From positions 21,761,409 through 21,825,408 of the forward strand of contig OY727093.1 in NCBI GenBank assembly GCA_963402885.1: 64,000 nt of DNA. Reading direction: 5' to 3'. This document shows positions 2,401-64,000 of the stretch, piece after piece; the stretch's first letter is position 1, and every line of letters starts with the position of its first letter. The translations under genes were made by a program, and so were the position numbers. The stretch comes from Antedon bifida (lineage: Eukaryota; Echinodermata; Crinoidea; Comatulida; Antedonidae). Below the pieces are notes generated by a model. It did no database searches. It was not told the origin of the DNA and saw only the letters and a list, made by a program, of their open reading frames with translations.

Positions 2401-2559
2401 ATAATGTATTAAGCCGTGAATATACAAAAAAAAGAACAATTACATAAGAGTAAGATTGATTGAACTGATTAGAATTGATCAGGAATGAATAACAAAAGAA
2501 TTAAAGGTAATTTCTGTATTTACTGTATATTTTACAAATACTAAAATCAACTCTAATTA

Positions 2560-5500
2560 GTTATCCGCACCTTAGCGGATAACTCCTTGTGATTGTATGA
2601 GATCATCATCAACATTTTTGGTTATCCGCAACACAAAAGTTGTGATTGTATGGATTTTTGTTTTCACCTGTGTTATTCTTTCTTTCCACAATTTTTTGCA
2701 CAGCCTATCTCTTAAACTTGTAAGCATAGCATTTTGTAACTTTACCAGAATTTTAACCTTTGCCTGAAGATGTCGTAATAAGGTTTTCGTTAGCGCCAGA
2801 GTTGCTCAGCATAACGTACGAGTGATTATATGAAATTCTATGATTGATCATAAATTCAGAACAATAAGTTATTTTTTATTGAAACTTAATGAAATCATAA
2901 TTTATATAAGGGGTCAACGGAATAAAAATGGCTTATTGCACAAGAATGTATGCCCGCACATTTGTAGTAGATTGAATTAATTTTGATGAACTTTAATGGC
3001 AAAATGATGACTCACTTTAATGGCAAAATGATGACGCACATGCACGTTAAACTTTAATAATCGTGTGCTAAAAAATGGGTAATTTAATGCAAATTTGTGA
3101 AAAATATTCCTATTTTTAATCATTTATAGCTCCTAAGAATGGCTGGTTCATAATTTATGAGCAACCATATAATTTCATAAATCACATGTAACTTATGCTG
3201 CGCGACTCTAACGTCATATAACGAAGTTTCTTGCACATCTACAGCTACAGGTCAATCTTTTGACAAAGTTCTACAATCTTATGTTGACCAGAATGACAGA
3301 TATTCGTGCAACACAATTCTTGGAAAGAAAAAAGAATAACAAAGAACATGAAAAAAGATCGTGACAATAACAAGGGTTATCCGCAACTAAGTTGCGTATA
3401 ACCCCAAAAAAAGATTGTGACAATAACAAGGGGTTATCCGCCAAATGCGGATAACCAAATAAATATATTTTGTACAAATTTGCATTCAATTACCTATTTT
3501 TTAGCAAACGATTAATAAATTTTAACGTGTACGTGCATCGTTATTTTGCAATTAAAGTTCATCAAAATAAATTAAATCTACTACTACAGAAAGTGTGAAA
3601 AACAAAATTCAATTGGAAAACCTTTTTTCTACGCTTTGTATAAGCCGTGCCCATAAGTGCGTGCGCAAAACGCAAACAAATTTAGAAAATTTCGATATGC
3701 TCAAAATGACCTAAAATGTACGCGAAATTAGATGAAATTAGAAATTAATTTAGCACATGTTGAAATTGAAATAAATATGAGTAATCATGTAATTTTGTGC
3801 GCAACATGCTACTTTTATCATGTCAAAAATTGCTCCATATTATGAAATACACTTTTGTAAAGTTTCATTAAAAAATTAATTTTACTTCAGAATTTATGAT
3901 CAACCATAACATTTCATAAAATCGTGTGTAACTTACGCTGTGCGACTCTAACGTCATATAACGAAGTTTCTTGCACATCTAGAGATAGAGGTCAATCTTC
4001 TGACAAAGTTATACAATCTTATTCTTATGTTAACAAGAATTAAAGATACGCTGCAGACAAAATTCAGGGGGAAAAAAGAAGAATAAGATAGGGGGTGAAA
4101 AAAATAAGATTAGAATAACATGAGTTACCTAATTTCATCTATACAGTATATTTTAATAACTTTGAATCAGTTATGAATCTGAATGAAAAGTGACCCACTT
4201 GATTAGAACTTATTATAGAAGCTGTTGAATTGTACATATGAATTCATATACTAATTGTGTCTATCTGATGTCATGACGTCATCATGGCCGGATGAATTTA
4301 AAAAGTTGGATTTTCATCTTTTTCGTGCCCAAAATTCTTAAAATTTTTATGAATGTAATTATTTATGTAACTCTGTTATATCTTCATGTTTCATTTTTAT
4401 GACTTCATCATGGTAAAAATTGGAATAAAAGATGGGTCTCGCAATTTCTTCTATGCTATATATTCTATAAATTTAAAACCATTAAACCATTACACTGTAT
4501 ATAACAAACTGTATATAATATATACGGTGTATTCTGTAAAAATACTGTATAATGTTATGACAACAAATAGACAGCATTCATAGTTTAATGTATGTTCATA
4601 TATTTTAACGATTTTATGAATTTCAATTTCAATGATCATAATTAAAAACTAGAAGCCATTTTGTATTGAAAAAAAATTTAATTCATATCAAGAGTCAACT
4701 TTCTGTGGATTAAAAATGGCATGTTTCACACAAATGCATTTAACATTTCAAATTGGTTTTTTTTGGGGTAGGGGGTAACATATGTATTCATTTTTATGAA
4801 CTTTAAATACAAAACCATGAAACTTATGCTTACCCCATTTACTCTTGGATTGTAATAATGTTCTTTTTCTCAGTTAATTCTCTTAAACACGATTAATAAC
4901 AATTTTAATTTTTTATGACGTTGTCATGTCAAAAAAATTAAATTTAAAAAAAATTAATCTATACAGTATATTTCAATCTGTTATGGCTCCTCAAAACGAA
5001 AAATCTTTTGAAATCTCATCGGAAAAATTGTTGGGTTCATTACGAACGTCGGAGGGAAGTCACCAATGGAAAAAAATAGGCCTACTCATCAGTAGGACAA
5101 CTGTAGTTGGCCGGAAATGACACTTAGCGTGCTAGCAAACGGCAGGACGATCGTACTGTAGCCTAATTTTTCCGCCGGTAAACATACCCGATAAGAAACA
5201 TTTTTTGCGTTCATTACGAACGTTAGGAGAAAGTCCCCAATGAAAAAAATAGGCCTACTCATCAGTAGGCAACTCTAGTTGGCCGAAAACGACACTTCAT
5301 AGCGCGCTAGCAAACTGCAAAACGATCGGCCGACCGTAAAGCGTCACGGTAGACAACCCAAGCGTCATGGTACCGTGACGCTTCAAGGGCCTGGGGAGAA
5401 CACTGTACTATGTATGGCACAATTCAGCAATATAAACATTATTTACTTCAGGTCACAGGATGGCATAATCATTTTCGGCGTTTTATTGTTGAGTATGCAT
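2560..5500. mobile_element. Decayed cluster of Helitron-like copies in both orientations
   Basis: The same 5' hairpin word that starts the 20.5-31.9 kb units (TTATCCGC...GCGGATAA followed by CTCCTTGTGATTGT) occurs on the + strand near 2562-2600. It also occurs on the minus strand twice near 3370-3450. Body segments typical of the family (the stretch ending in a GCGCAGCGTAAGTTACGCGC-like word, and the TGTAGCTGTAGATGTGCAAGAAA word) appear inverted at 3140-3300 and 3900-4090. 3'-body segments in + orientation lie at 4110-4580, with TGACGTCA at 4274. Segments at 2960-3120 and 3475-3595 are inverted copies of each other. The pieces are clearly more diverged than the tandem units further right. Confidence 0.6.
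5035..5330. repeat. Direct duplication, period 174 bp
   Basis: A segment beginning GTTCATTACGAACGT at 5035 recurs at 5209. It shares the words ATAGGCCTACTCATCAGTAGG, GTTGGCCG and GCTAGCAAAC in the same order. The two copies differ by scattered substitutions. A short palindrome (AAGCGTCA...TGACGCTT, about 5360-5383) follows. No gene is seen. Confidence 0.6.
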
Positions 5501-6237: not shown

Positions 6238-9200
6238 GTTGATAATTATCAGCATTTTTATGAATACATAATTACATAGAGTTTGGAAGATAAAACATTG
6301 GATTTAAAATTACATGATATAATATTGTCATGATTTGGGTTACCATTGCACAGGTTTTCTAGGTTTTCTATTTTTAGGGTATATGCATTATCATGCAATA
6401 CCTTTTTGATTTTGTCAGAATCTTTGTTTCTTTATTCATTTATTCTTTCCTTAACATTATTTTTTCCATCAATGATCTTGAGATCTATTTCATCAAGCCA
6501 CATACATTTTTCAGTATATTCTTTATGGCCAGGAATCGCTGTAAGCTTTTCATAGTGCACAATAAAACATTATGAGGTCGCGCGATTTAATGAAATCACG
6601 TTTGTTATATCTTTACAACTAGCTATCAAAATTAAAGCACATTTGGTGCTCATAAATTTCAGATATTGCACCATATAGAAATAAAATTATGTGCGTAGCG
6701 CATACAATATACACATGCACATATTTTAAAATTAATTTTCGAATAAATTAAAGCACATTTGAAGCCATTTTAACACTAGTTTGAACAAGGCCATATACAT
6801 GGCTGCAGTCGCATGAAGTTAGTTTTTACCGACCAACTGACATAGGGAGCTGTAGAGTTGCACGTGACTAAAAATTGCACATAAATTTTACACGATTTCT
6901 GTTTTACAATTTCTTTTTAGCAATATCATCCTATAACTTACTTCAACTTTAAATCATGTTATATGAGCACTTTAAAAGTGTAAACTCGAATAATTTTGAA
7001 AATGTTATAAAAATGTGTGATTTTTCTGGTCCTCAGAAATGAAACAAAAATTTACCTATAGTCTACCTCTTATTTCACTAGGATTTTATTAAAAAAATAC
7101 CTATAGTCTACCTTATTTATTCAGTTCGCTGAATCTTATTTTTACCAACTGTAAGCAATATATTTGATAAAAGTATGTTTTACAAGGGAAAATAGTATTT
7201 ATCAAAACTTTTTGTTTACCACTACAATGTTGTAATTGAGTTGTGTACATATATTCAGCAATTAAAAACAATTTAAAGCATCCTCAAATTATTGTGCACA
7301 TATGTTTCAGCAAATTGGGAAAACATCCCTATTCGGGGCAAATTGTTTAACCTAAATTTGTTTTAATCGTCAATATTTAATTATCTAACTAAAGTTAATT
7401 AATCAATTCATTAGGTGTTAAAAATCACTACCAAAAGTAGTGTACTAACATTCTATATCATTGAGTAAAAATTATAAAAGTTATGCATGATTTACCGAAA
7501 TTTGCCCTTATGTAAATTTATATAGATTCAAGATTCTGACAAAATCAATCAATATATCTACATTTTTAAAAAACAATATATCTTATATATTTAAATCAAA
7601 GCATATAACCTTCGTCATAGTTACAAATTAAATCTAGTTATTTATACATTTTAGTGAGAATGATGTAGCATATGAACACTAATGATTTTGAATTGAGTAC
7701 ACACCATTTTACAAAGCCTTGTAGTTGTACCTATATATTAAAACCTACAAGGAAGTATTACGGCTTGAAGAGAGATCGGTAACGGTAAGCTGAAACCGCA
7801 TAGCTTGTTCCACATAAAATCTGTATCTATCCTGAACGGAAACCGCCCATCCACATTGTGTGTAAATGGACATAAAGAATAACAATAACATAGATTCTAT
7901 ATTTTTATTAATTAACCCCAAACCCTTACCGCTCTTCAGTATAAATTGGCCTTAATTCCTAATCAGCATTGCCAGAGTGATAAAATTTAACTTAGCCGTA
8001 GCCTGGCTCAAGTAATTCAATGCCAGATTGAGCTAAATAATGTCAAATCCCCACCAACCGTTGCATGTCTAAACAAGGTCTGTAAAACCCCAACTGACAC
8101 AAAATAAGGCCCACGTTGTTCAAAATTTATATTTCTAACTTTGTGTGTAATAACTAGTAATTTCTCCTAATATTTGGGGCACGAAAATTGTAAATGCAGA
8201 TGAACCAAAGAAACTGTGGTTTTAGCGTAATTAAGACAATTTTGAATTTTATAGAGCTGACAGATGTTCAGAAATTTCAAATAGGAAATAAAAATATATA
8301 AGAATCTCTGAGAAAACATTTTTAAAATAGAGCTGCTCGATGCCCAGAAATGGCACTTAACTTGAAATATGAAATAAAAATATATAAGTGTCTCCAGGAC
8401 CTCAGCCCCACCATGGTTGAGGCTGACGTAAGAAAATTTGGAAAAATAGAGCTGCTACGATACACAGAAATGGCATGTTTAATTTGAAATATGGGAAAAA
8501 TAAGAAGAAAAATTTTAAAAAAATTACAGCCACTAGGTCAACGGAAATTGGCCTTTTTTAAGGGGTTGGGGAGGAATAATAAATAATTTGTTGTTTAATT
8601 GGAAGCCAGTTAAGTTTATATAATATTGGTGTAATATGAGCAAATCTTGAAGTGCCGGATACAAGTCAAGCTGCAGTATTTAAAAGAAGTTGTAGTTTAT
8701 TAAGTTCTTTATTTGGTAGACCAAACAAAATGGCATTGTAGTAGTCTAACCTAATTAGTGCATGGACAAGTTTAATAAGCGAGGAGTGGGTTAAGGATTT
8801 GCGAATTGATCTTATGTTACGAAGGTGGTAGGTAACAGATTTACTAATGTTGTTGATATGTCTGGACATAGTCATTGCTGAGTCAAATACAACTCCGATA
8901 TTTCTAACCTCCAATGAAGAAATAAGACTTCTGTTTTACCAGGGTTAAAACAGAGCAATCCTGAACATCAACAACACAAGCTTCGATAACCGACTTCGCC
9001 TCATTAAACTCTGCTGGATTGAAGCTGATGTACAGTTGCGTGTCATCTGCGTACGCATGATATTGAACACAATGTCTCCTAATGATATCACTCAAGGGCG
9101 AGATGTAAACTAAAAACAATACTGGACCCAGTATTGATCCTTGAGGAACACCGCATTTCAGGTCGATAGAGGTGGATCTGACATTACCAATCTGGACCTT

Positions 9201-12200
9201 CCTAGAAGACAAATATGACTTGAACCAAGTCAGAGCAGATCCACGGATACCAATAGACAAGAGTCTTGCAATAAGAATGGAATGATCAATGGTATCAAAA
9301 GCTGCCGACAGGTCGAGGTACACAGCCAAAACACAATTTCCTTTATCCAGAGCTAAAATAATATCATTATGCACCTTAAGAATGGCTGACTCTGTACTGT
9401 GGTGCTTTCTATATGCTGATTAAAGAGGGTCGAAAAGATTATTGTCGTCAGGAAAATGTATGAGATCTAAAGCAACGCATTTCTCAAGGATCTTGGACAA
9501 GAAAGCGACATTAGAAGTAGGTCAAAAATTTGCCATGGAAGTATGATCCAATGAACCTTGCCACGCATTGGTGAGCAGCCTGCCGAATAGTCAATTGAGT
9601 CCGAAACGAAACCGATAGAGGAAATATAGTATGGAAGAAAATTTGACATGTTTTTGTAAAATATGATATGTTCGAAATTGCAAAATTTAAACAAAATATT
9701 ATTCTTGTTCTATGGTATATTATTTTTTTGGTTGTTCAAAAGCACAAAATTATGCCAGATTATGCTAAAAACGGCTAAATAAAGCCCTGGCATTATGCCA
9801 GATGCAGTGGGCCTCCAAAAAATGCCAAATAGCATAATAATGCCAGAAATGTTCCTAACCCATATCTAGTTGGACTTTTACTTTTTCAGTATTTTGTATT
9901 GGTTATACCATAAATCATAAAACAGTCATTTTGAGAATACATCTGTTTACCGTCTATAACACTTCTACTCTTTTCAATGGCTAGCTTCTCAGCCTAGCCT
10001 TCAAAAAATGTTTTAAATGGAAGTAGCAGATTAATTGAATAAAAGTTTACTTTAGCACTGACCGTGAGTACGTCGGAGGGCTATTACACTTTATTATAGG
10101 CATGCATTATTGCCAGCAACTTAAACAATATGCACACACTTGCGCTGTCCCTTTGTATGAATCGTTCAACATTGGGTCCAGCTCATTGTTGTTTACGCAT
10201 GATATATCATGTTCCATCCAGGCAAAGTTTATCGACACATTCGTCGTGTACTGTGTATCAACATACGCTACAGCAAAAGGGTATGAATTATGTTCGAAAT
10301 CTAGAGTACAGCTATTAATTATGTTCACGATCTGCAGTACAGCTATTAATTTAATTACTGTTTCGTTCCCACGCATAACCATTCACCGCGAGTTACTTAG
10401 ATAGTGCATTGTTTCTCTCTTTTTATCATAATTTACCATAAAACGAACATTTAAGACAAGGAATGACCTGGTTTAATGTTTTTAGAGTAATATATATTCA
10501 TTATTTTTACAAAACGTCACAATTGTAGTGAAGCATACTGTTAGAAATAATATTTTTATTTTCACAGTCGACAAATGACCAGGCCTAGCAGTGCCCGACC
10601 AGCTCCACCTAAAGTAAAGCAAGAAGCAGTACAAGACCCAAACATAAGGTAAATTTGCATTTTTATTTTACAAAATTAAACCAAATTGTATTTTACCTTA
10701 AGCCAGTTGACGTTGAGTTATACATACATGATCGTTCTTGTTTTCTTGGTTCTATCGAGCGTAGCTGGGTTCTTGATGCTGCAACCTAGCCTAGAACATT
10801 TTAATGCTGATATCTTGATCTATGCTTACACTAGACAAAATTTAAATTAAATGGCGTTTGTATTATAATTTAATTTGACTCTCTCTCTACACTATCAAAC
10901 TTTATGTGACAAAAAAATATTATGTGCCCATGGACATGATGATGTCATATTACTACCGTATTTGTGTATATCACTACAATGTTTGGGCTCATCACATTTT
11001 TTTGTCACATGAAGTTTGATAGTGTAAACAGAGCTTTACATTTTATCGGACCTTAAAAGTGTACAAAAAAGATGAAAAACATTATCAGTGTGTACATAGT
11101 TTGTTCACAGATTTAACGATTGTTAAGTTAAACTCAGTCCAACTTAATTGATTTTTACCCCTTTTCCTATAAAATCGTCATTAACTCAACGCAACTTGCC
11201 GCAATTCAACGTCAACTGGAAAACATGATTTTTTATTTTTTTTATTTATTTGGTATAACACTCAAAATGCAACAAAAGTTGAAAATCTTATGAGTTTACA
11301 AAAAGTACAACAATAATATATCTATACTAAAATGAACAGAAAAAAAACCCAATAATTACATCTTACAAAAATATAATATTGCACAAATTTAAAATTATTG
11401 ATTATTATTTGATCTAATTATTAGAAATTCAGAAATATATACAGGTTTAAATTATTTATTATTTATAAAGTCCTCTTAGAAATTAAATTCAAAATGTCAT
11501 TACAAAGATCAATACAATTACTGTATTATTATTTATTTATTTAAAAGTCTTATTGCACAAGGAAGGAATTTCCATAACGGTTAGTCCTACATCTAGGTAC
11601 ACTGTACTTGTTGAAGAAATGCAGTCAAGTCCTCTCGGGCTTGATGTTCTCAGGTATCCACAAAGTGAAACGCCCAGATGTCACCAGACTGTTTCCAAAT
11701 TTGGCATATACACTTAACCGTCTGTCTTGTAAGGATGTTACATTCAAGTTTTTTAAAGTGTCTTGGTACCCCGTGTAGTTGTTATAGCTGATGATGATCT
11801 TAAAGGCTCTTTTTTGAAGAAATTCCAACTGGGTGAATTGCTGTTTAGTGATTATCATGTTACGACTCTAGTTCTCAAGCCCTGCAGTATCTTAAATGGA
11901 TGAACCTTGAATCAAAACTTTCTTACAATGAAACTATTACTATGTTTAAGATTTTCCATAACTTAGCACCTTCATATCTTGGAAACAGATTTACCTTAAG
12001 AGATCCCCAATATAACACAAGATCAAAGGATACATTATATGTTGAAAAACCAAAAACTGAAATACAAAAAATGGAGTTTAACCTATTGCGGTGCTAAGTT
12101 ATGGAATAACCTAAACATAGAATCTAGAAATGCGACAAGTCTTGCTAAATTCAATGCACAAGACTTGTAGGCAGGTTAATTTCTATGTTTTATGATGTAT

Positions 12201-19029: not shown

Positions 19030-19334
19030 TACTATTAGATACATAAACACATGTACAAATAAACTTATTACTGTGAGTGTGGGTAGGCCCTACTATTAGA
19101 TACATAAACACATGTACAAATAAACTTATTACTGTGAGTGTGGGTAGGCCCTACTATTAGATACATAAACACATGTACAAATAAACTTATTACTGTGAGT
19201 GTGGGTAGGCCCTACTATTAGATACATAAACACATGTACAAATAAACTTATTACTGTGAGTGTGGGTAGGCCCTACTATTAAATACATAAACACATGTAC
19301 AAATAAACTTATTACTGTGAGTGTGGGTAGGCCC
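19030..19334. repeat. 61-bp minisatellite, five copies
   Basis: Five head-to-tail copies of a 61-bp unit start at 19030, 19091, 19152, 19213 and 19274. Each begins TACTATTAGATACATAAACA and ends GAGTGTGGGTAGGCCC. Copies are identical by eye except one G to A change in the last, so the expansion looks recent. Confidence 0.95.
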
Positions 19335-19411
19335 TAGATATATAAACGCACAATATACAAATAATCTTTATTATTGAAAGTTGCTTCTCAACATTTGTAT
19401 TATTAATAATT

Positions 19412-19872: not shown

Positions 19873-20096
19873 TTACTATTTCAATCGACCATGACAGTTT
19901 TAACAAAGTATTAAATCGCAAATGTTTTACTGTATTTAGTGGTATATTATTTATAGGCCTATAAAATATGAAAAGAAATATTTTTTTACTAAGTGGATAA
20001 AGAATATATTTAAAAATTGTTCCTCTTTGTACCCATCCTCTTCTCCATCCCTCAACTCTAATGTTACATAAAAAACACAAATTTGGTTTGTTTAAG
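19873..20096 (+). repeat. Dispersed repeat, copy 1
   Basis: About 220 bp shared with 62383-62598 on the same strand, including TACTATTTCAATCGAC, AACAAAGTATTAAATCGCAA, GTGGTATATTATTT, GGATAAAGAATATATTT and CACAAATT. The outer flanks differ. There is no coding capacity or clear terminal repeat. Confidence 0.75.
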
Positions 20097-20291
20097 TGAG
20101 TCCAAATTGGCCGAAAAATAATTGGGATGCTTTGTCAGTACAGGACTTGAAAGGTCAATATTATCAGTCAATACTTTTTAACTACTACCCGTGCTCCGCA
20201 ATGTATTTTATTATATTATGTTACTCGTGCGCGTGTCAGCCGATAGCTCTAGTGTGCGCCGGGCTTTAATCCATGCACTGACTCTCCCTTA

Positions 20292-20449
20292 AGCTTGGTT
20301 CCCACTAGGACGCAACGCAGGGACGTAGACGCAATGCAAGCGAGTTGACCAATGACATGCGACAGTTCAAATAATTCATCGCTTTTGATTGGTTAAATCC
20401 CTTACGTTGCTTTACGTCGTTGTGTTGCGTCTCTAGTGGGAACCACGCA
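20292..20449. mobile_element. Harbinger-like MITE, TGGTTCCCACTAG family, copy 1
   Basis: The inverted ends are AGCTTGGTTCCCACTAG and CTAGTGGGAACCACGC, and the inner GACGCAACGCA words also pair. TTA flanks both sides (20289-20291 and 20450-20452), fitting the 3-bp TWA duplication of PIF/Harbinger transposons. It is 158 bp and non-coding. A sister copy is at 34233-34411. Confidence 0.75.
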
Positions 20450-20548
20450 TTATTCTGCTTCATTTCTCTGAACAAATAGACTGCTAATGCTGTATTTTTT
20501 TTGGGTTTGAAATGTTCACACAACTTAGTAATTACCTCATTATAACCA

Positions 20549-20913
20549 TCATTGGTTATCCGCACTTGGCGGATAACCCCTTGTTATTGTCAGGATCTTT
20601 TTTTTTTTTTTTTTTTTCTTTTTTTTTTTGGTTATCCGCAACTTAGAAGTTGCGGATAACCCTTGTGATTGTAATTTTTGGTTATCCGCACTTGGCGGAT
20701 AACCCCTTGTTATTGTCAGGATCTTTTTGGTTATCCGCACTTGGCGGATAACCCCTTGTTATTGTCAGGATCTTTTTTTTTTTTTTTTTTTTTCTTTTTT
20801 TTTTTTTGGTTATCCGCAACTTATAAAGTTGCGGATAACCCTTGTGATTGTAAATATCTTTTTTTTTTTTTGGTTATCCGCACTTGGCGGATAACCCCTT
20901 GTTATTGTCAGGA

Positions 20914-20930
<17 letters not shown>
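20549..20930 (+). mobile_element. Stack of Helitron-like 5' ends
   Basis: Within 400 bp the short hairpin GGTTATCCGC...GCGGATAACC, followed by CCTTGTTATTGTCAGGATCT or CCTTGTGATTGTAA and then a T-run, occurs six times in the same orientation. Two variants alternate: a loop of ACTTGG, and a longer ACTTAGAAGT-type loop. None but the last is followed by the element body, so these look like repeated partial ends piled at the left border of the array. Confidence 0.7.
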
Positions 20931-20944
<14 letters not shown>

Positions 20945-22087
20945 CTATGTTCTTCTTTCTTTCCACGAATTTTGTTGCACGCATATCTCTAATTCTGGCC
21001 TACATAAGATTGTATAACTTTGTCATAAGATTGACCTATAGCTGTAGATGTGCAGCCAAGCTTTTCGACGATTTCGGAGTTGCGCAGCGTAAGTTACGCA
21101 CGATTTTATGAATTTCAATGATTGATCATAGATTAAAAACCAAAAGTCATTTTGTATTGAAACTTGGTGAAAATTTAAGTCATATCAAGCGCAAACTTTC
21201 TATGGATTAAAAATGGGAGGTTGCGCAGAAAGTTACGCGCGCACGCGCGTTTAAAATTTCAAATTGCGAAAAATCCATTTCTAATCAACTTTCTACGCGT
21301 TTCATGTCATTTTGAGCATTTCAAAAATTCCCACGCGTGCGCAATATTTTTACGCGCGCGTGCGCACGTAGGGCAAAAACATGTTTTTTTTGCTTGATTT
21401 TTGTTTTTTCAGCCTTTTCTAGTAATTTTACCAACTTTCAAACAATTTCGACTTAAAATCACGTCATACGAGCACGTAGAATTGAACAATTTGCGCGCGT
21501 TTTTGATAAACAATTTCAAAAATTTGTCAAAATTATACCTTTTTTTAAACAGTCATAGATTATAAACTACATGGTCAATTTTATTTTTTTTTACATATTC
21601 TGAAAGTAGATGAGTTGTAGATGTAGAATCATGCATCCATTTGGCTAACCGGACATTGTGACGTCATCGTATGGCCACTCCAATATCAAATATAGGATTT
21701 TTGTCTCTTTCGTCATAGCTCATCACATTTAATAGAGCGCATCTCTACTTATCCATATTCCATTTTCCTCAATTTTGTAATATTGTCTAGGTCAATCAAT
21801 TATCTTTTACATGATTTACCATTTTTAAAATTGTGATGACGTCATCATGTTCAAAAGCGTCAATAACTTTGGTAACTTATTTTCACCTATTCTGCACTGT
21901 ATGTAGTACGTATACAGTATATTGTGTATACCGTATATACTCAGACGTGAAGCAAAATACAGGGCACACTAACACTTTTTCAATGGCATAATCGTTTTTC
22001 TGTGCGCAATATTCTAACTTATGTCGTGCGCGTGGCTTTTGCGCTGCGGATAACCTAACTCGTCCGTAGTGACGAGTTCAAATCTAG
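20875..22087 (+). mobile_element. Helitron-like unit 1 (short subfamily)
   Basis: The 5' hairpin near 20875 is followed by a T-run and TCTTCTTTCTTTCCACGAAT. The 3' end has GCGGATAACC, the hairpin AACTCGTC...GACGAGTT, then CAAATCTAG at 22079-22087. A hairpin a few bases before a terminal CTAG is the Helitron 3' signature. The inverted pair GGTTATCCGC (5') and GCGGATAACC (3') recalls the subterminal repeats of Helentrons. No Rep/helicase is present, so the unit is non-autonomous. Two TGACGTCA sites, at 21659 and 21837. Confidence 0.72.
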
Positions 22088-23736
22088 TTAGTTATCCGCT
22101 TAGTAGCGGATAACTCCTTGTGATTGTAGTGGATCATTATTTTTTTTCTGTATTATTAGTTATCCGCATAGTAGCGGATAACTCCTTGTAATCGTCCTGT
22201 TACTTTTTTTTTTTCTTATTTCTTTCTCCCTCATTTTTGTGTCTCACGTATCTCAAAAACTTGTAAACATAACATTTCATAACTTTGTCAACATATGGGC
22301 ATTTACGTGAAGTTGTGCACCTCCTATTTTTGAATGACGTCAGAGTTGCGCAACGTGACTTACGCGCGATTTTATGATTTTTAATGATTGATCATAGCTT
22401 AAAAACCAAGCGTAATTTTTTTTTTACCCTTTATGAAAATTTAAGTCATATCAAGGGCAAACTTTTAGTTAACTAAAAATGGCGTGTTTTACAAGAAGTT
22501 ACGCGCGCACGCGCATTTAAAATTTTAAAATGCGCAAAATTAATTTCTAATCAACTTTTTACGCCATTCATGACATTTTGCGCATGTCAAAATTTCCCGC
22601 GCGCGCGAACAATTTTACGCGTGCAGTGCGCACGCAGCATGAAAATCATGTTTTTTTCTATTAAATTGTGATTTTCCAGCCTTTCCTAGTCATTTTTAAA
22701 AAGATTGACATCATTTCAAATTAAAATGACGTCATACGTACACGTTGATTTAGACCATTTGCATGCGTTTTAGTTGCAAAAGTTACAAAATATTGTCAAA
22801 ATTATGCCTATTTTGAATCTATTATAGCTCCTCAGGATCAACCGTTACCCCCGAGTTTTTTAACTTAATATGTAAGCAGATATGATGTAGATATGAATTC
22901 ATGCAGAATTTTTTCCTTATGGATGTTGTGACGTCATCGTATGGCCACACAAATGTAAAAAATAGGATTTTTGTCTCTTTCGTTATTGCTCATCACATTC
23001 AATGGAGCGCATCACGCTTATCCGTCTTCCATTTTCTCCGAGATTTTAATATTATTTAGGTCAATCAACTATCTTTCGCATGAGTTAAAAATATTTTAAT
23101 TTTTATAACGTCATCATGCCTAAAACTTTAAATTACGTGGGTCATTAATTTTATCTTTACAGTAAATTTTAATCTGTTATAGCTCGTAAGAATAAAATGT
23201 GATAATCACGATTAAAACGTTTTCTGGAAGCTATTGGATTGTAGATACGAATTCATGTGAACATTTTGTCAATCAGATGTAGTGACGTCATCATATGGCC
23301 AGTTGAATAAAAAAAGTCGTATTTTCATATTTTGCGTCATAGTTCATCACATTTAAAAGAGCGCGCATCTATATTTTACGTATCCAAATTTCTTCTACAC
23401 GCTAATATGTTGTTGCTGAGATAATATCCTTCCGAAATTGGTATTTTAGTGTTTCATTTTGATACCGTCGCCATGTTAAAAAATGGAATAAATGGCGGGT
23501 CCCGTAATTTCACCTATTCTACACTGTATGTAATATGTATACAGATTATACTGTTTATACTGTATATACTATATGACACAAAATTGACAGAATTCAGCAC
23601 TAACAACATATCATATTCTTCAGATCAGGTCATAATGCCATAATCTTTTTCTGGGTGCAAAATTCTAACGTATGACGTGCACGTGGCGTTTGTCGTGCGG
23701 ATAACTAACTCGTCAAAGTGACGAGTTTCATGTCTA
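22088..23736 (+). mobile_element. Helitron-like unit 2 (long subfamily)
   Basis: It begins directly after the CTAG of unit 1 with TTAGTTATCCGC. Two 5' hairpins are present (22090 and 22156), so it may itself be a nested pair. It ends ACTCGTCAAAGTGACGAGT, then CTAG at 23733-23736. It is about 1.65 kb with a longer 3' body than unit 1. TGACGTCA sites: 22335, 22727, 22929, 23283. Confidence 0.72.
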
Positions 23737-25322
23737 GTTGGTTATCCGCAACTAGTAAGTTGCGGATAACCCTTGTTATTGTAAATATCTTTTTTCTTCA
23801 TCTTTATTCTTCTTTCTTTCCCGGATTTTTGTGCGTCGCATATCTCTCATCCTTGTCAACATAAGATTGTATAACTTTGTCATAAGATTGACCTGTAGCT
23901 GTAGATGTGCAAGAAACTTCGTTATATGACTTTAGAGTCGCGCAGCGTAAGTTACGCGCGATTTTATGAATTGCAATGATTGGTCATAGATTATAAACCA
24001 AAAGTAATTTTATATTGACACTTGGTGAAAATTTAAGTTAAATTAAGGGCAAACTTTCTATGGATTAAAAATGACATGTTTCACAAGAAGTTACGCGCGC
24101 ACGCGCATTTAAAAATTAAAAATGCGCAAAATTAATTTCTAATCAACTTTCTACACTGATCATGACATTTTGAGCATGTCAAAAATTCCCACGCGCGCGA
24201 AAAAAATTACGCGTAAGGTGCGCACGGAGCATAAAAATCATGTGTTTTTCTCTTGAATTATAATTTTACAGTCTTTCCTAGTTATTTTAAAAAAGATTGA
24301 CATCATTTCAAATTAAAATGACGTCATACGAACACGTTGATTTAGACCATTTGCACGCGCTTTAGTTGCAAAAGTGACAAAATTTTGTCAAAATTATGCC
24401 TATTTTGAATCTATTATAGCTCCTCAGGATCAACCGTTACCCCCAATTTTTTAAATTTAATATGTAAGCAGATATGTTGTAGATATGAATTCATGCAGAA
24501 TCTTTACCCCTCGGATGTTATGACGTCATCGTATGGCCACACGAATGTAAAATATTGGATTTTTGACTGTTTCGTTATTGCTCATTACATTAAATAGAGC
24601 GCATCTCGCTTATACGTATTCCATTTCGTCATATATTTTAATACTGTCTAGGTCAATCAGCTATCTTTCGCATGAGTTAAAAATATTTTAATTTTTATGA
24701 CGTCATCATGTCTAAAAATGTAAATAACGTGGGTCACCTATTTTCATCTTTACAGTAAATTTCAATCTGTTATAACTCGTCAGAATAAAAAGTGACGCTC
24801 TTGATTAAAACTTATTATAGAAGTTTGTTGAATTGTAGATATAAATTCATATTCAAATTTTGTATATCTGATGTCATGACGTCATCATATGACCAGTTGA
24901 ATTCAAAAAGTCATATTTGCATCTTTGGGTAAAAGTTCATTGCGTTTAAACGAGAGCGCATCTCACTTTTACGTGCCCAAAATTCTTCAAATTTGTATTA
25001 ATGTAATTATTTAGATAATTATCTTCTGAAATAGTTATCTTTATATGTCAATTTGATGACGTCATCGTGTTAATAATTGGATTTAAAAGATGGGTCTCGT
25101 AATTTCGTCTATGCTACACTGTATATAACATATACAGTGTATTCTGTAAATTCTGTAATATGCTGTATGCTACAAAATAGGTACAATTCAGCACTGTAAA
25201 CATATTTATTTCATGTCATATGATGGCATAATAATTGTCGGCGTTCATATAAAATAAACGTATGTGCATGTTGCGTTTGCGCGGATAACCAGAACTCGTC
25301 AAAGTGACGAGTTCAAATCTAG
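23737..25322 (+). mobile_element. Helitron-like unit 3 (long subfamily)
   Basis: It starts TTGGTTATCCGCAACTAG and ends with the GACGAGTT hairpin arm, CAAAT and CTAG. About 1.59 kb. It is very similar by eye to unit 4 (shared GCGCGAAAAAAATTACGCG and TAAGGTGCGCACGGAGC). Five TGACGTCA sites: 24319, 24521, 24698, 24877, 25057. Confidence 0.75.
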
Positions 25323-26845
25323 TTCATCTTTATTCTTCTTTCTTTCCCGGATTTTTGTTGCAGCTATATCTCAAATTTTTGTAGACATAACTTTGTATAA
25401 CTTTGTCATAAGATTGACCGGTAGCTGTAGATGTGCAGGAAACTTCGTCATATGACGTTAGAGTCGCGCAGCGTAAGTTACGCGCAATTTTACGAATTTC
25501 AATGATTGATCATAGATTATAAACCAAAAGTCATTTTTTATTGACACTTACTGAAAATTTAAGTCATATCAAGCGCAAACTTTCTATGGATTAAAAATGG
25601 CATGTTTCACAAGAAGTTACGCGCGCACGCGCATTTAAAATTTCAAAATGCGGAAAATTAATTTCTAATCAACTTTCTACGCTGATCATGACATTTTGAG
25701 CATGTCAAAAATTCCCACGCGCGCGAAAAAAATTACGCGTAAGGTGCGCACGGAGCATGAAAATCATGTGTTTTTCTCTTGAATTATGATTTTACAGCCT
25801 TTCCTAGTCATTTTAAAAAAGATTGACATAATTTCCAATTAAAATGACGTCATACGAACACGTTGATTTAGACCATTTGCGCGCGCTTTAGTTGCAAAAG
25901 TGACAAAATTTTGTCAAAATTATGCCTATTTTGAATCTATTATAGCTCCTCAGGATCAACCGTTACCCCCAATTTTTTTAATTTAATATAGAAGCAGATA
26001 TGTTGTAGATATGAATTCATGCAGAATCTTTACCCCTCGGATGTTATGACGTCATCGTATGGCCACACGAATGTAAAATATTGGATTTTTGACTGTTTCG
26101 TTATTGCTCATTACATTAAATAGAGCGCATCTCGCTTATACGTATTCCATTTCCTCATATATTTTAATACTGTCTAGGTCAATCAACTATCTTTCGCATG
26201 AGTTAAAAATATTTTAATTTTTATGACGTCATCATGTCTAAAAATGTAAATAACGTGGGTCACCTATTTTCATCTTTACAGTAAATTTCAATCTGTTATA
26301 ACTCGTCAGAATAAAAAGTGATAATCATGATTAAAACGTTTTCTGGAAGCTATTGGATTGTAGATACAAATTCATGTGAATATTTTGCCAAACAGATGTT
26401 GTGACGTCATCATATGGCCAGTTGAATTCAAAAAGTCATATTTTCATCTCTTGCGTAAAAGTTCATTGCATTTAAACGAGAGCGCATCTCACTTTTACGT
26501 GCTCAAAATTCTTCAAATTTGTATTAATGTAATTATTTAGATAATTATCTTCAAAAATTGTTATCTTTATATGTCAATTTGATGACGTCATCTTGTTAAT
26601 AATTGGATTTAAAAGATGGGTCTCGAAATTTCGTCTATGCTGCACTGTATATAACATACAGTGTATTCTGTAAATACTGTAATATGCTGTATGCTACAAA
26701 ATAGGTACAATTCAGCACTGTAAACATTCTTAATTCATGTCATAGGATGGCATAATAATTGTCGAAGTTCATATAGTTTAAAGTATGTGCATGTTGCGTT
26801 TGCGCGGATAACCCGAACTCGTCAAAGTGACGAGTTCAAATCTAG
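25323..26845 (+). mobile_element. Helitron-like unit 4 (long subfamily, no 5' hairpin)
   Basis: It starts TTCATCTTTATTCTTC straight after the preceding CTAG and lacks the TTATCCGC hairpin at its 5' end. The 3' end is complete (hairpin then CTAG, 26842-26845). About 1.52 kb. TGACGTCA sites: 25845, 26047, 26224, 26402, 26583. Confidence 0.74.
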
Positions 26846-27991
26846 TTTTTCTATATTCTTCTTTCTTTCCACGAATTTTGTTGCACGCATATCTCTAATT
26901 CTGGCCAACAATAGATTGTATAACTTTGTCATAAGATTGACCTGTAGCTGTAAATGTGCAAGAAACTTTGTTTTATGAATTTCGAGTCGCGCAGCGCAAG
27001 TTACGATCGATTTTATGAATTTCAATGATTGATCATAGATTAAAAACCAAAAGTCATTTTGTATTGAAACTTTGTGAAAATTTAAGTCATACCATGCGCA
27101 AACTTTCTATGTATTAAAAATGGCATGTTTCACAGAAAGTTACGCGCGCACGCGCGTTTAAAATTTCAAAATGCGAAAAATCAATTTCTAATCAACTTTC
27201 TACGCGATTCATGTCATTTTGAGCATTTCAAAAATTCAGACGCGTGCGCAATTTTTTACGCGCGCGTGCGCACGTAGCGCAACATCATTTTTTTTTTGCT
27301 TGATTTTTGTTTTTTCAACCTTTTCTAGTAATTTTACCAACTTTCAAACAATTTTGACTTAAAATCACGTCATACGAGCACGTTAAATTGAACAATTTGC
27401 GCGCGTTTTTGATGAAAAAGTTCAAAAATTTGTCAAATTATGCCTTTTTTTAAAATGTCATAGATTTCAAACTACGTGGTGACATTTTTTAAAATTACAG
27501 ATTCTGGAAGTTGATGAGTTGTAGATATCAAATCATGAATCAATATGGCTAACCGGACATTGTGACGTCATCGTATGGCCACTTGAATATAAAATATATG
27601 ATTTTTGTATCTTTCGTCATAGCTTATCACATTTAATAGAGCGCATCTCCACTTATCCGTATTCCATTTCCCCATTTTTTTTTATATTGTCTAGGTCAAT
27701 CAATTACCATTCGCATGATTCACCATTTTTAAAATTGTGATGACGTCATCATGTTCAAAAGCGTAAATAACTTTGATCACTTATTTTTACCTATACGGCA
27801 CTGTATGTAGTATGTATACAGTATATAGTGTATATTGTATATACTTAGACGTGACACAAAATAGAGGGCGCACTAACACTTTTTCAATGGCATAATCGTT
27901 TTTCTGCGCGCAATATTCTAACTTATGTCGTGCGCGTGGCTTTTGCGCTGCGGATAACCTAACTCGTCCGTAGTGACGAGTTCAAATCTAG
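26846..27991 (+). mobile_element. Helitron-like unit 5 (short subfamily, no 5' hairpin)
   Basis: It starts TTTTTCTATATTCTTC and ends with the AACTCGTCCGTAGTGACGAG hairpin and CTAG at 27988-27991. About 1.15 kb. It is near-identical by eye to unit 8 over long stretches (for example both read GTTTTATGAATTTCGAGTCG). TGACGTCA sites: 27563, 27741. Confidence 0.74.
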
Positions 27992-29612
27992 TTTTTTTTT
28001 TTTTTTTTTCTTTTTTTTTTTTTTGGTTATCCGCAACTTAGAAGTTGCGGATAACCCTTGTGATTGTAAATATCTTTTTTTTTTTTCATCTTCTTTGTTC
28101 TTCTTTCTTTCCCGGAATTTTGTTGCATGCATATCTCTCATTCTTGTCAACATAACATTGTATAACTTTGTCAAAAGATTGACCTGTAGCTGTAGATGTG
28201 CAAGAAACTTCGTTATATGACGTTAGAGTCGCGCAGCGTAAGTTACGCGCAATTTTATGAATTTCAATGATTGATCATAGATTATAAACCAAAAGTCATT
28301 TTGTATTGACACTTGGTGAAAATTTAAGTCATATCATGGGAAAACTTTCTATGGATTAAAAATAGCATGTTTCACAAGAAGTTACGCGCGCACGCGCATT
28401 TAAAATTTCAAAATGCGCAAAATTAATTTCTAATCAACTTTCTACGCTGATCATGACATTTTGAACATGTCAAAAATTCCCACGCGCGCGAAAAAAATTA
28501 CGCGTAAGGTGCGCACGGAGCATGAAAATCATGTGTTTTTTTCTTGAATTATGATTTTACAGCCTTTCTTAGTCATTTTAAAAAAGATTTACATCATTTC
28601 AAATTTAAATGACGTCATACGAACACGTTGATTTAGACCATTTGCGCGCGTTTTAGTTGCAAAAGTGACAACATATTGTCAAAATTAAGCCTATTTTTAA
28701 TCTATTATAGCTCCTCAGGATCATCCACGACCCCCAATTTTTTTAATTTAATATGAAAGCAGATATGTTGTAGATATGAATTCATGCAGAACCTTTACCA
28801 CTCGGATGTTATGACGTCATCGTATGGCCACACGAATGTAAAATATAGGATTTTTTACTCTTTCGTTATTGCTCATCAAATTCAACAAAGCGCTTCTCGG
28901 TTATAGGTATTCCATTTCCCCCGAAATTTTAATATTGTCTACGTTAATCAACTATCTTTCGCATGAATTAAAAATATTTTAATTTTTATGACGTCATCAT
29001 GTCTAAAAACGTAAATAACGTGGGTCACTTATTTTCATCTTTACAGTAAATTTCAATCTGTTATAGCTCGTCAGAATAAAAAGTGATAATCATGATTAAA
29101 ACGTTTTCTGGAAGCTATTGGATTGTAGATACGAATTGATGTGAATATTCTGCCAATCAGATGTTGTGACGTCATCATATGGCCAGTTGAATTCAAAAAG
29201 TCATATTTTCATCTCCTGCGTAAAAGTTCATTGCGTTTAAACGAGAGCGCATCTCACTTTTACGTGCCCAAAATTCTTCAAATTTGTTTTAATGTAAATT
29301 TTTAGATAATTATCTTCTAAAATTGTTATCTTTATATGTCAATTTGATGACGTCATCGTGTTAAAAATTGGATTTAAAAGATGGGTCTCGTAATTTTGTA
29401 TATGCTACACTGTATATAACATATACAGTTTATTCTGTAAAATACTGTAATATGGTGTATGCTACATAATAGGTACAATTCAGCACTGTAAACATATTTA
29501 TTTCATGTCATAGGATGCATAATAATTGTCGAGGTTCATATAGTTATAAGTATGTGCATGTTGCGTTTGCGCGGATAACCCGAACTCGTCAAAGTGACGA
29601 GTTCAAATCTAG
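27992..29612 (+). mobile_element. Helitron-like unit 6 (long subfamily)
   Basis: A T-run, then the hairpin GGTTATCCGCAACTTAGAAG...GCGGATAACC near 28025, then the long-subfamily body. The 3' end is at CTAG 29609-29612. About 1.62 kb. TGACGTCA sites: 28610, 28812, 28989, 29167, 29348. Confidence 0.75.
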
Positions 29613-30840
29613 TTTTTTGGTTATCCGCACTTGGCGGATAACCCTTTGTTATTGTCAGGATCTTTTTTTTTTTTCTTTTTTTTCTCTTTTTTTTTCTATT
29701 TTCTTCTTTCTTTCCACGAATTTTGTTGCACGCATATCTCTAATTATGGCCAACATAAGATTGTGTAACTTTGTCATAATATTGACCTGTAGCGGTAGAT
29801 GTGCAGGACGTTTAGTTTTTTTACTTTAGAGTCGCGCAACGTGACTTACGCGCCATTTTATGAATTTCAATGATTGGTAATAGATTAAAAACTAGAAGTC
29901 ATTTTGTTTTGAAACTTAGTGAACATTTAAGTCATATCAAGCGCAAACTTTCTATGGATTAAAAATGGCATGTTTCACAGAAAGTTACGCGCGCACGCGC
30001 GTTTAAAATTTCAAAATGCGAAAAATCAATTTCTAATCAACTTTCTACGCGTTTCATGGCATTTTAAGCATGTCAAAAATTCCCACACGCGCGCAATTTT
30101 TTTACGCGTGCGTGCGCACTTAGCGCAAAAACACCTTTTTTTTGCTTAATTTTTGTTTTTCCAGCCTTTTCTAGTAATTTTACCAACTTTTAAACAATTT
30201 TGACTTAAAATTATGTCATACGAGCTCGTAGAATTGGACAATTCGCGCACGTTTTTGATAAAAAAGTTTAAAAATTCGTGAAAATTATGCCTTTTTTAAA
30301 AAAGTCATAGATTCTAAACTACGTGGTGAAATTTTTTTAAATTACAGATTCTGGAAGTTGATAAGTTTTAGATATTGAATAATGAATCGATATGGCTAAC
30401 CGGACATTGTGACGTCATCGTATGGCCACTCGAATATAAAATATAGGGTTTTTGTCTCTTTCGTCATAGCTCATCACATTTAATAGAGCGCATCTCCAAT
30501 TATCCGTATTCTATTGCCCTCCATTTTTTTATATTGTCTAGGTCAATCAATTATCTTTCACATGATTTACCATTTTTAAAATTGCGATGACGTCATCATG
30601 GTCAAAAGCGTCATTAACTTTGGTCACTAAATTTTCACCTATTCTGAACTGTATGTAGTACGTATACAGTATATAGTGTATACTGTATATACTTTGACGT
30701 GACGCAAAATAGAGAGCGCACTAACATTTTTTTCAATAGCATAATCGTTGTTCTGTGCGTAATATTCTAACGTATGACGTGCACGTGGCTTTTGGGCTGC
30801 GGATAACCTAACTCGTCCGTAGTGACGAGTTCAAATCTAG
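29613..30840 (+). mobile_element. Helitron-like unit 7 (short subfamily)
   Basis: It starts TTTTTTGGTTATCCGCACTT with the GGCGGATAACC hairpin, then a T-run. It ends CTAG at 30837-30840. About 1.23 kb. TGACGTCA sites: 30410 and 30588. Confidence 0.74.
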
Positions 30841-31939
30841 TCTATATTCTTCTTTCTTTCCACGAATTTTGTTGCACGCATATCTCTAATTCTGGCCAAC
30901 ATTAGATTGTATAACTTTGTCATAAGATTGACCTGTAGCTGTAAATGTGCAAGAAACTTTGTTTTATGAATTTCGAGTCGCGCAGCGCAAGTTACGCGCG
31001 ATTTTATGAATTTCAATGATTGATCATAGATTAAAAACCAAAAGTCATTTTGTACTGAAACTTTGTGAAAATTTAAGTCATACCATGCGCAAACTTTCTA
31101 TGGATTAAAAATGGCATGTTTCACAGAAAGTTACGCGCGCACGCGCGTTTAAAATTTCAAAATGCGAAAAATCAATTTCTAATCAACTTTCTACGCGTTT
31201 CATGTCATTTTGAGCATTTAAAAAATTCCCACGCGTGCGCATCAAAATCATTTTTTTTTTGCTTGATTTTTGTTTTTCTAACCTTTTCTAGTAATTTTAC
31301 CAACTTTCAAACAATTTTGACTTAAAATCACGTCATACGAGCATGTTAAATTGAACAATTTGCGCGCGTTTTTGATGAAAAAGTTCAAAAATTCGTCAAA
31401 TTATGCCTTTTTTTTAAATGTCATAGATTTCAAACTACGTGGTGACATTTTTTTAAATTACAGATTCTGGAAGTTGATGAGTTGTAGATATCAAATCATG
31501 AATCAATATGGCTAACCGGACATTGTGACGTCATCGTATGGCCACTTGAATATAAAATATATGATTTTTGTATCTTTCGTCATAGCTTATCACATTTAAT
31601 AGAGCGCATCTCCACTTATCCGTATTCCATTTCCCCATTTTTTTTTATATTGTCTAGGTCAATCAATTACCTTTCGCATGATTCACCATTTTTAAAATTG
31701 TGATGACGTCATCATGTTCAAAAGCGTAAAATTTTTACCTATACGGCACTGTATGCAGTATGTATACAGTATATAGTGTATACTGTATATACTTAGACGT
31801 GACACAAAATAGAGAGCACACTGAAATTGTTTTAATGGCATAATCGTTTTTCTGTTTGCAATATTCTAACGTATGACGTGCACGTGGCCTTTGCGCTGCG
31901 GATAACCTAACTCGTCCGTAGTGACGAGTTCAAATCTAG
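30841..31939 (+). mobile_element. Helitron-like unit 8 (short subfamily), right border of the array
   Basis: It begins TCTATATTCTTCTTTC with no spacer after unit 7's CTAG, so the 5' end is TC as in Helitrons. It ends CTAG at 31936-31939 and is followed by unrelated sequence starting TTTGGATTATT. It has small internal losses compared with unit 5. About 1.10 kb. TGACGTCA sites: 31525 and 31704. Confidence 0.75.
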
Positions 31940-32640
31940 TTTGGATTATTATTATTATTATTATTATTTATTCAGGCAAAAGATACATTTTACAAATATA
32001 ATACAAATCAACAAATTAAACAAACACAACGCAAAAGAAAATATAAAATCATAGTAACTAGCTGCCAGGAAAGCACAAAAGCACCTAAGCCACTGTCACC
32101 AATTAGGTGTGTTCCTCCAACAGTGACTAATTATTACAAATAATATATATAATATAGATGATGATAGAGTTAATATCTTAAAAGAATAACTTAATTATAT
32201 TAGCCTATAGTTTATATATGTAAATGCTAAATTAAATCATAAATAAACAACTATAAAATAAAATTATTTTAAATTTACATTAAAATATGTTAATAATAAA
32301 TTAAGTACAAAGTACTGTAATATTTCCTCCCAATTGTTTATTAACTTAATCAACGGGTAAGTAATGTTCCCTTAGGTTACTTTTAAATGTACTCCATTTT
32401 AATAAGATAAAAGCATTTCTTAAATCCATGGGTAATGCATCCAAAGTCTACAAAACCGTACAGGTAAGCAATGCAGTGCACTATCAGTCCGAGCTTTAAG
32501 TCTTTTAAATGTTAATATTTCCTGATGACGATGATTGATTTTAATCAGTTCATTTAAGTATTCATTGTTCATATTTAATGCTATAAGTATAATGATTGGC
32601 TATAGTTTCCTAAATTTCGTAAGATTTCTCACCAATGCAG
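31940..32640 (-). mobile_element. Probable LINE 3' end with (AAT)n tail, antisense
   Basis: An (ATT)n run at 31945-31969 is followed on the right by complex sequence. Read on the minus strand it finishes CAGGCAAAAGATACATTTTA inverted, with GAATAAATAATAAT as the tail. No reverse transcriptase part is recognised, so the call rests on the tail and context. Confidence 0.5.
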
Positions 32641-63675: not shown

Positions 63676-64000
63676 CTCATCTTAATTGTTTCAAATTAAT
63701 TAATTTAGTTTCAGTATATCACTGTGCGCACAGAATTCATGTTCTGTGCCTATGATCTCTGGTGCGCGTGCGTACAAATGAGGACTAGTGCTGTTCTGCC
63801 GTACCATGCCGAAAGTGTCAAAGAGTCGCTATCCAAGTTTGAACAATACCATGAAAGCCCCAGTGGTCTAATGGTTAGGAAAACTGCATATCAAGCAGAC
63901 AGTCCGAGTTCGAGTCTCGGTTGGGGCGACTTTTTCTCATTCTCACAGATTTCCTCATCTTTATCGTTTCAAATTAATTAATTAAATTTCAGTATATCAC
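63676..64000. repeat. Direct repeat unit, period 278 bp
   Basis: The segment from 63676 to 63722 (CTCATCTTAATTGTTTCAAA, then TTAATTAATTTAGTTTCAGT, then ATATCAC) recurs at 63954-64000 with few differences. The window edge therefore falls at the end of the second copy of this segment. The unit between them contains the tRNA-like gene, suggesting a tandem array or a duplication that continues to the right. Confidence 0.75.
63857..63928 (+). tRNA. tRNA-like gene, anticodon AUC (Asp by code), Glu-like body
   Basis: The cloverleaf folds with a 7-bp acceptor stem (GCCCCAG with TTGGGGC, last pair G-U). The A box is TGGTCTAATGG. The anticodon stem is CTGC/GCAG plus one A-A mismatch, around the loop ATATCAA with U33. 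The T arm CCGAG-TTCGAGT-CTCGG is perfect and holds the B box. A T5 terminator follows at 63931-63935. The body aligns base for base in length with animal tRNA-Glu, but the anticodon is AUC, which would read GAU (Asp). Nuclear tRNA-Asp normally has GUC. It may be a tRNA pseudogene or SINE source rather than a translating tRNA. Confidence 0.6.

Follow-up and report, generated by a model that had tools for sequence, protein, structure and literature searches.

The closest described relatives of the elements studied here are HINEs, short non-autonomous Helentrons. According to the openly accessible text of Thomas, Vadnagara and Pritham 2014 (PMC4067079), HINEs carry subterminal inverted repeats near the 5′ end and ~38–60 bp from the 3′ end, as well as a palindrome ~8–35 bp from the 3′ end. 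They use a T-rich TT target without target-site duplication and have a Helentron partner. Tandem or adjacent Helitrons with head-to-tail joints, in which CTAG adjoins a 5′ end, are described in bat, maize and other genomes, and in maize Helitrons have been reported to insert close to one another (accessible parts of PMC2267711, PMC4067079 and PMC12477314). Head-to-tail Helitron arrays have so far been attributed to missed termination, which is the published explanation in the accessible text of PMC4067079. Here we describe an array of eight HINE units in a 64-kb window (C1:21761409-21825408, the whole stretch of DNA analysed) of the Antedon bifida genome, which is assembled in 27 contigs over 315.6 Mb. 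Our analysis indicates that the array probably grew mainly as new copies inserted, time after time, at T|T in the T-rich front of copies already present, with recombination and composite mobility contributing.

The array occupies positions 20549–31939 of the window. Its units, 1.10–1.65 kb in length, abut head to tail with a spacer of 0 bp, and all eight carry a 3′ hairpin followed by CTAG (Table 1). The 3′ end reads TTCAAATCTAG in seven units and TTTCATGTCTAG in unit 2. Intact units start with TTGGTTATCC or TTAGTTATCC, summarized as TT(G/A)GTTATCC, which forms a hairpin ahead of a T-rich pad. No 5′ hairpin stands at the start of units 4, 5 and 8; these are headless and begin inside the pad. 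In unit 6, a T-run precedes the hairpin. Since six 5′ hairpins (20554–20920) are found in unit 1, this is not a single clean unit. The units fall into a short subfamily (1, 5, 7 and 8; 90–97% identity among themselves) and a long subfamily (2, 3, 4 and 6; 81–94%), with 69–76% identity between the two. The subfamilies are intermixed along the array, and neighbouring units are 71–94% identical, corresponding to a divergence of up to 29%.

The units share with HINE and DINE-1-like elements the 5′ palindromic subterminal inverted repeat with a copy near the 3′ end, the 3′ palindrome and the T|T target without target-site duplication (compared with the accessible text of PMC4067079). In intact units, the motif GGTTATCCGC..GCGGATAACC lies 2 nt from the start; the second copy of GCGGATAACC starts at 42 nt from the 3′ end, and the palindrome AACTCGTC..GACGAGTT is located 9 nt from the 3′ end. 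Folding gives −6.9 and −10.7 kcal/mol for two 3′ ends (z −1.97 and −4.27) and −11.3 to −15.7 kcal/mol for three 5′ hairpins (z −5.65 to −8.30). The exact 17-base 3′ tip occurs in 1,695 copies genome-wide, compared to 0 for the reversed-pattern control, so the 3′ end pattern does not arise by chance. The following base is a T in all but 12 of the 1,695 copies. The units also differ from the elements described in that source. Their 3′ end is CTAG, as in canonical Helitrons, and they are massed head to tail in a bracket-like manner. In addition, the repeat common to both ends measures 10 bp, unlike the 12–15 bp of mite HINEs.

The original prediction had described eight abutting, non-autonomous Helitron-like units with Helentron/HINE-like ends and a CTAG border. 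The array is confirmed as a real observation, and the assignment is supported by the palindromic subterminal repeats, the 3′ hairpin, the T|T target and the T that follows the tip. The proposed start of the units at T or TC is incorrect. The units are HINEs, a family that is already known, and not canonical Helitrons. The latter (Helitron1) are ruled out by the TTGG/TTAG start in place of TC and by the T|T target in place of A|T, although the 3′ hairpin and CTAG, which fits CTRR, are a canonical trait present in every unit. A 5′-truncated retroelement with a fixed 3′ end and variable start was also considered and dropped, given the type-matched hairpins on the left and a tip that is common to elements with Rep and helicase.

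Paired hairpins and headless bodies

In the proposed mechanism, new copies would insert at T|T in the front of a resident copy. The site would lie either in the pad, the T-run within the 5′ hairpin, or immediately ahead of that hairpin. Since only one strand of the pad is rich in T and the element presumably joins the T strand, a newcomer in the pad would take the orientation of the resident. Such an insertion would leave an orphan hairpin on the left of the newcomer and a headless body on its right. Repeated landings in the same orientation would then stack the elements as nested brackets. The arrays have probably been shaped further by recombination among the units and by composites that transpose as a whole.

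The junctions in the genome show features that fit such insertions. We examined the first 30 tips by position on C1, a non-random sample from 834 matches to one tip variant. Of these 30 tips, 26 lead into unit sequence of the same orientation; for two of the 26 (L057 and L059), the alignment first sets in 350–500 nt downstream. Genome-wide, a 5′ hairpin lies within 30 nt after the tip in 486 pattern matches and the pad motif TCTTCTTTC in 448, with 0 matches for the pad on the opposite strand. The counts of 486 and 448 refer to exact motifs, may count a site twice when two hairpins follow, and include copies that are not independent events. Among 100 listed pad junctions, 28 contain a t-type pad, which resumes with 5 Ts (15 cases), 4 Ts (12) or 3 Ts (1). 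Stacked hairpins give 1,229 pattern matches; the 100 listed consist of 88 hairpin-hairpin and 12 tip-hairpin pairs.

We read seven arrays, ignoring matches of 60 bases or less in the parse. Both flanks were available for five of them: the window array, arr10.3, arr13.18, arr13.67 and arr16.80. In all five, the type of the leftmost hairpin is the type of the last, headless body. The count leaves out arr16.56, read without its left flank, and arr20.83, cut at the right; in arr16.56, a t-type hairpin stands at the left edge and the last body is t-type and headless. The simplest case is arr13.67, where one long element lies within the pad of a short element. In the window, the left stack holds a type-matched hairpin for each of the headless units. 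The hairpin module at 20872 probably belongs to unit 1 itself, while the other five modules of the stack would be orphaned 5′ ends of other units.

Insertions are also observed inside the bodies of units. In arr13.18 (C1:13179932-13187800), the left part of the resident stops at ATATCTTT, a full unit TTGGTTATCC...CTAG follows, and the resident resumes at TGTATAAC. We had predicted the exact letters of the left flank of this 13.18-Mb insertion wrongly, but the resident did resume. An uninterrupted relative in arr16.80 reads ATATCTTTTGTATAAC, which is an exact empty site. Comparison of the two arrays identifies the inserted element as TTGG...CTAG and the target as T|T, with the number of Ts kept and neither duplication nor loss. 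A second interrupted resident body (L058/L059) resumes in register, as judged by eye and allowing for a 355-bp internal duplication. Of the AT or TT targets anticipated at empty sites, T|T is thus seen at one in-body site. No empty site was found for the window array as a whole: the single other copy of its left flank also bears an array, and its right flank is a dispersed repeat.

Several observations weigh against this reading. Three of the five paired arrays share a related outer body (97.2–99.5% identity), so they are not independent and the pairing amounts to ~3 independent cases. The window contains 11 hairpins for 8 bodies, with ~3 hairpins left over, and arr10.3 retains one unmatched hairpin. 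In the array at C1:16.8 Mb, the predicted downstream resumption of unit 2-type sequence was not found; this junction looks like a deletion-derived CTAG. The strand bias of 448 to 0 is expected in any head-to-tail process and does not separate the models. The 1,229 stacked matches are not independent events, as a 5′ end with several hairpins can be passed on when an element transposes. Exact CTAG|TTGG, present in 68 of 100 listed tip-hairpin junctions, would also be produced by a circle or multimer. Six adjacent pairs, a subset of those in these arrays, were compared, and in two of them the partners are each other's best match in the set. The number of Ts at a difference between the window array and its paralogue on contig C8 is inconsistent (5 versus 3+6). 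Strict last-in-first-out pairing of all hairpins was also tried, and it fails in the window.

While these points limit the reading, we consider repeated insertion into the T-rich front of residents, together with recombination and composite mobility, the likely course of array growth. We found no description of pad-directed, bracket-nested Helentron arrays in the accessible portions of the open-access literature. The closest parallel is FoHeli of Fusarium, in which several 5′ ends stand ahead of one 3′ end, ascribed there to self-insertion (accessible text of PMC5148889). FoHeli are single elements. The cases described here are full arrays that have stacked hairpins at the left and headless bodies at the right. 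The bat and maize tandems, explained by missed termination or neighbour insertion in the accessible parts of the papers cited above, differ in that the joints here often lie within the 5′ T-run of the resident.

It is possible, as a more tentative proposal, that the 5′ pad is a self-made landing site, whose T|T, present on just one strand, steers rolling-circle copies into it in a single orientation and so builds ordered, bracket-nested arrays that move as composites. If true, this would be a transposon route to large tandem repeats without missed termination or unequal exchange. The junctions seem to record who landed in whom, and presumably in what order, by the orphan hairpin on the left and the headless body on the right, which makes the origin of an array testable from sequence. 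The same could be tested in tandem Helentron arrays and derived satellite-like repeats elsewhere, such as Drosophila DINE-1 and oyster HINEs.

Alternative origins of the arrays

The original prediction explained the array as a product of rolling-circle transposition with missed termination. A tandem made in one event, by missed termination or by insertion of a circle or concatemer, is the most durable of the alternatives, but we consider it unlikely. According to accessible text, Helraiser forms circles with exact end joints (PMC4778049), and the 68 exact CTAG|TTGG junctions are compatible with such a process. However, insertion between a host T and the TT of a resident equally gives exact CTAG|TTGG. 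An adjacent Helitron pair of maize is discussed in similar terms in the accessible text of PMC2267711. The two mutual best pairs (97.2% and 95.7%, in two arrays) favour a one-event origin, whereas in the remaining four of the six pairs the adjacent units are not each other's best match (80.7–93.6%). Probing the genome with 300-base pieces of units 6 and 8, with 40 places scored for each, revealed closer relatives elsewhere. All 39 other listed matches of the unit 6 piece are outside the window array. For unit 8, 18 other places outscore the best array neighbour, one of them being the C8 paralogue of the window array. The intermixed subfamilies, the divergence of neighbours and the resumption within pads and bodies in place of the 5′ end likewise do not support missed termination as the origin of the array. 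It may nevertheless account for part of the exact CTAG|TTGG junctions and for the mobility of entire composites.

Satellite-like expansion and reshuffling by unequal crossing-over and gene conversion, with insertion providing only the seed, appears marginally less probable still. Part of the evidence in its favour comes from the C8 paralogue. This locus shares the left flank of the window array at 99.8–100% over 20082–20728, with 196 extra bases at one point. The flank is followed by three hairpins, a mosaic of units 7 and 1 in the place of unit 7, and then unit 8, which matches the window at 98.7–100% in 150-base blocks up to a broken tip. Unit 4-like sequence comes next, and the reading reached C8:26703123; rows below 95% were omitted from the printed comparison. 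About 8.9 kb of the window array are absent at this position on C8, which could be a loss on C8 or a gain in the window. The tip of a further unit adjoins the flank on C8 at a T-run that is unbroken in the window. The mosaic and the array difference suggest that recombination among units probably acts too. The outer bodies of four arrays are 95.8–99.5% alike, compared to at most 96.2% for whole inner units of arr10.3 and arr13.18, apart from a single 133-base stretch at 99.2% that is placed differently. However, unequal crossing-over creates neither hairpins and headless bodies paired by type nor in-body insertions with an exact empty site, and the window units are not homogenised.

We regard it as very improbable that the arrays arise chiefly from multi-unit composites that transpose as one element, bounded by the outermost 5′ hairpin and the outermost tip, with read-through of the inner tips. 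In arr10.3 and arr13.18 the flanks differ, while the 81-bp left hairpin stretch is 100% identical, the split point in the pad is the same and the outer bodies are 99.5% alike. The few T counts at which t-type pads resume point in the same direction. The repeated split would equally follow if insertion favoured one point in the T-run, and the inner units diverge more than the outer body, which argues against simple joint travel without change. Repeats are difficult to assemble, but an assembly artefact or collapse can practically be dismissed: the units are 69–97% alike, the assembly consists of 27 contigs over 315.6 Mb, and junctions of these types are found hundreds of times across the genome.

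The autonomous partner

The HINE units are most likely mobilised by Helentrons of the same genome that encode OTU, Rep, helicase and endonuclease domains. The Helitron Rep domain (PF14214) has 39 matches genome-wide, many of them in long open frames. None is located in the window, which agrees with the original prediction as far as a Rep gene is concerned; no separate search of the window for a helicase was made. We scanned one open frame for domains. Its 3,152 aa contain DUF6570, OTU (PF02338), a match to PF04843 (Herpes_teg_N), Rep (PF14214), a PIF1 helicase (PF05970) and an endonuclease (PF03372), and the predicted product is a Helentron protein in which Rep, helicase and endonuclease are fused. 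Judging from the Rep domain, transposition would proceed via a Rep-cut single strand. Between OTU and DUF6570, the protein (L069/L070) contains internal ~18-aa repeats rich in lysine and arginine.

The open frame runs antisense to the hairpin-CTAG tip. Reversed (minus) open frames relative to the ends are reported for Helentrons of D. ananassae (Helentron-Da-40) and D. rerio in the accessible text of PMC4067079 and PMC5148889. The elements found here resemble these in this orientation and in the presence of Rep, helicase and endonuclease. They differ in that OTU, Rep, helicase and endonuclease share a single frame of ~3,100 aa together with DUF6570 and the PF04843 match, and in that the two copies read sit among HINE units. 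That a Helentron-type element ends in CTAG and has its open frame reversed bears on the relationship between Helitron and Helentron ends.

In the autonomous copy on C11, a hairpin-CTAG tip stands upstream of the frame and reads the opposite way, directly beside a unit and inside an array. The C8 copy is flanked by units on both sides; its own tip was not seen in the sequence read, and pad-like sequence ends the other side of its frame. Such sequence is present in one of the two copies read, and a full 5′ hairpin end was seen in neither. In a third copy, on C7, the tip adjoins a unit hairpin. A 443-base probe from the C11 tip gave 41 listed matches from 1,443 candidates. Five of these align from the first base and lie 7.9–9.2 kb upstream of a Rep match. 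At the Rep match C10:7512334, the body of the probe is found at this distance and the tip part 3.7 kb further away; the probe match C10:7520043 has no Rep match at a comparable distance. Of the two ends expected to be shared with a partner, the 3′ tip is common to the units and the Rep/helicase elements; on the other side, pad-like sequence is what was seen, in one copy.

Two Rep matches, C11:11231037 and 11264147, are ~33 kb apart. Their 5′ tips, separated by a similar distance (~33 kb), are almost the same in sequence over 443 bases, which suggests a recent duplication.

Features of the array and the window

Table 1 Features of the HINE array and its flanks (positions in the 64-kb window).
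Feature	Position	Strand	Length (bp)	Description
Host left flank	20082..20551	+		Recurs at 99.8–100% on contig C8 beside a related array
Unit 1	20549..22087	+	1539	Short subfamily; six-hairpin 5′ stack in front
Hairpin stack	20554..20920	+		Modules at 20554 (s), 20630 (l), 20680 (s), 20729 (s), 20808 (l), 20872 (s)
Unit 2	22088..23737	+	1650	Long subfamily, t type; two 5′ hairpins beginning AGTTATCCGC
Unit 3	23738..25322	+	1585	Long subfamily, l type; 5′ hairpin TTGGTTATCCGC intact
Unit 4	25323..26845	+	1523	Long subfamily; headless, pad start TTCATCTTTATTCTTCTTTC
Unit 5	26846..27991	+	1146	Short subfamily; headless, pad start TTTTTCTATATTCTTCTTTC
Unit 6	27992..29612	+	1621	Long subfamily; T-run, 5′ hairpin at 28025
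Unit 7	29613..30840	+	1228	Short subfamily; TTTTTT before 5′ hairpin
Unit 8	30841..31939	+	1099	Short subfamily; headless, pad start TCTATATTCTTCTTTC
Representative 3′ end	31898..31939	+		Subterminal repeat GCGGATAACC, hairpin AACTCGTC..GACGAGTT, CAAATCTAG last
Right flank	31940..32085	+		(ATT)n, then dispersed repeat (31944–32085); 37 other places listed, 93–99%

The region of the hairpin stack contains two copies of a 192-bp period (20552–20920). The long units 2, 3, 4 and 6 carry an internal duplication ~355 bp apart, which the short units do not have. To the left of the array, a 61-bp tandem repeat is present in 5 copies with 99% matches (19030–19336).

Decayed fragments of the same element family are found at 2554–5482, with hairpin stacks that face each other (2554–2640 on the plus strand, ~3370–3463 on the minus strand). 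The 3′ tip pattern used for the array gave no match in these fragments. A 171-aa open frame at 8904–9419 (minus strand) resembles, by eye, a fragment of a non-LTR (long terminal repeat) reverse transcriptase. The RNA-family search gave no match for the array, and only a tRNA reached the gathering score in the window. This gene, at 63857–63928 on the plus strand, is identified as tRNA by Rfam and as tRNA-Asp with the anticodon atc by ARAGORN.

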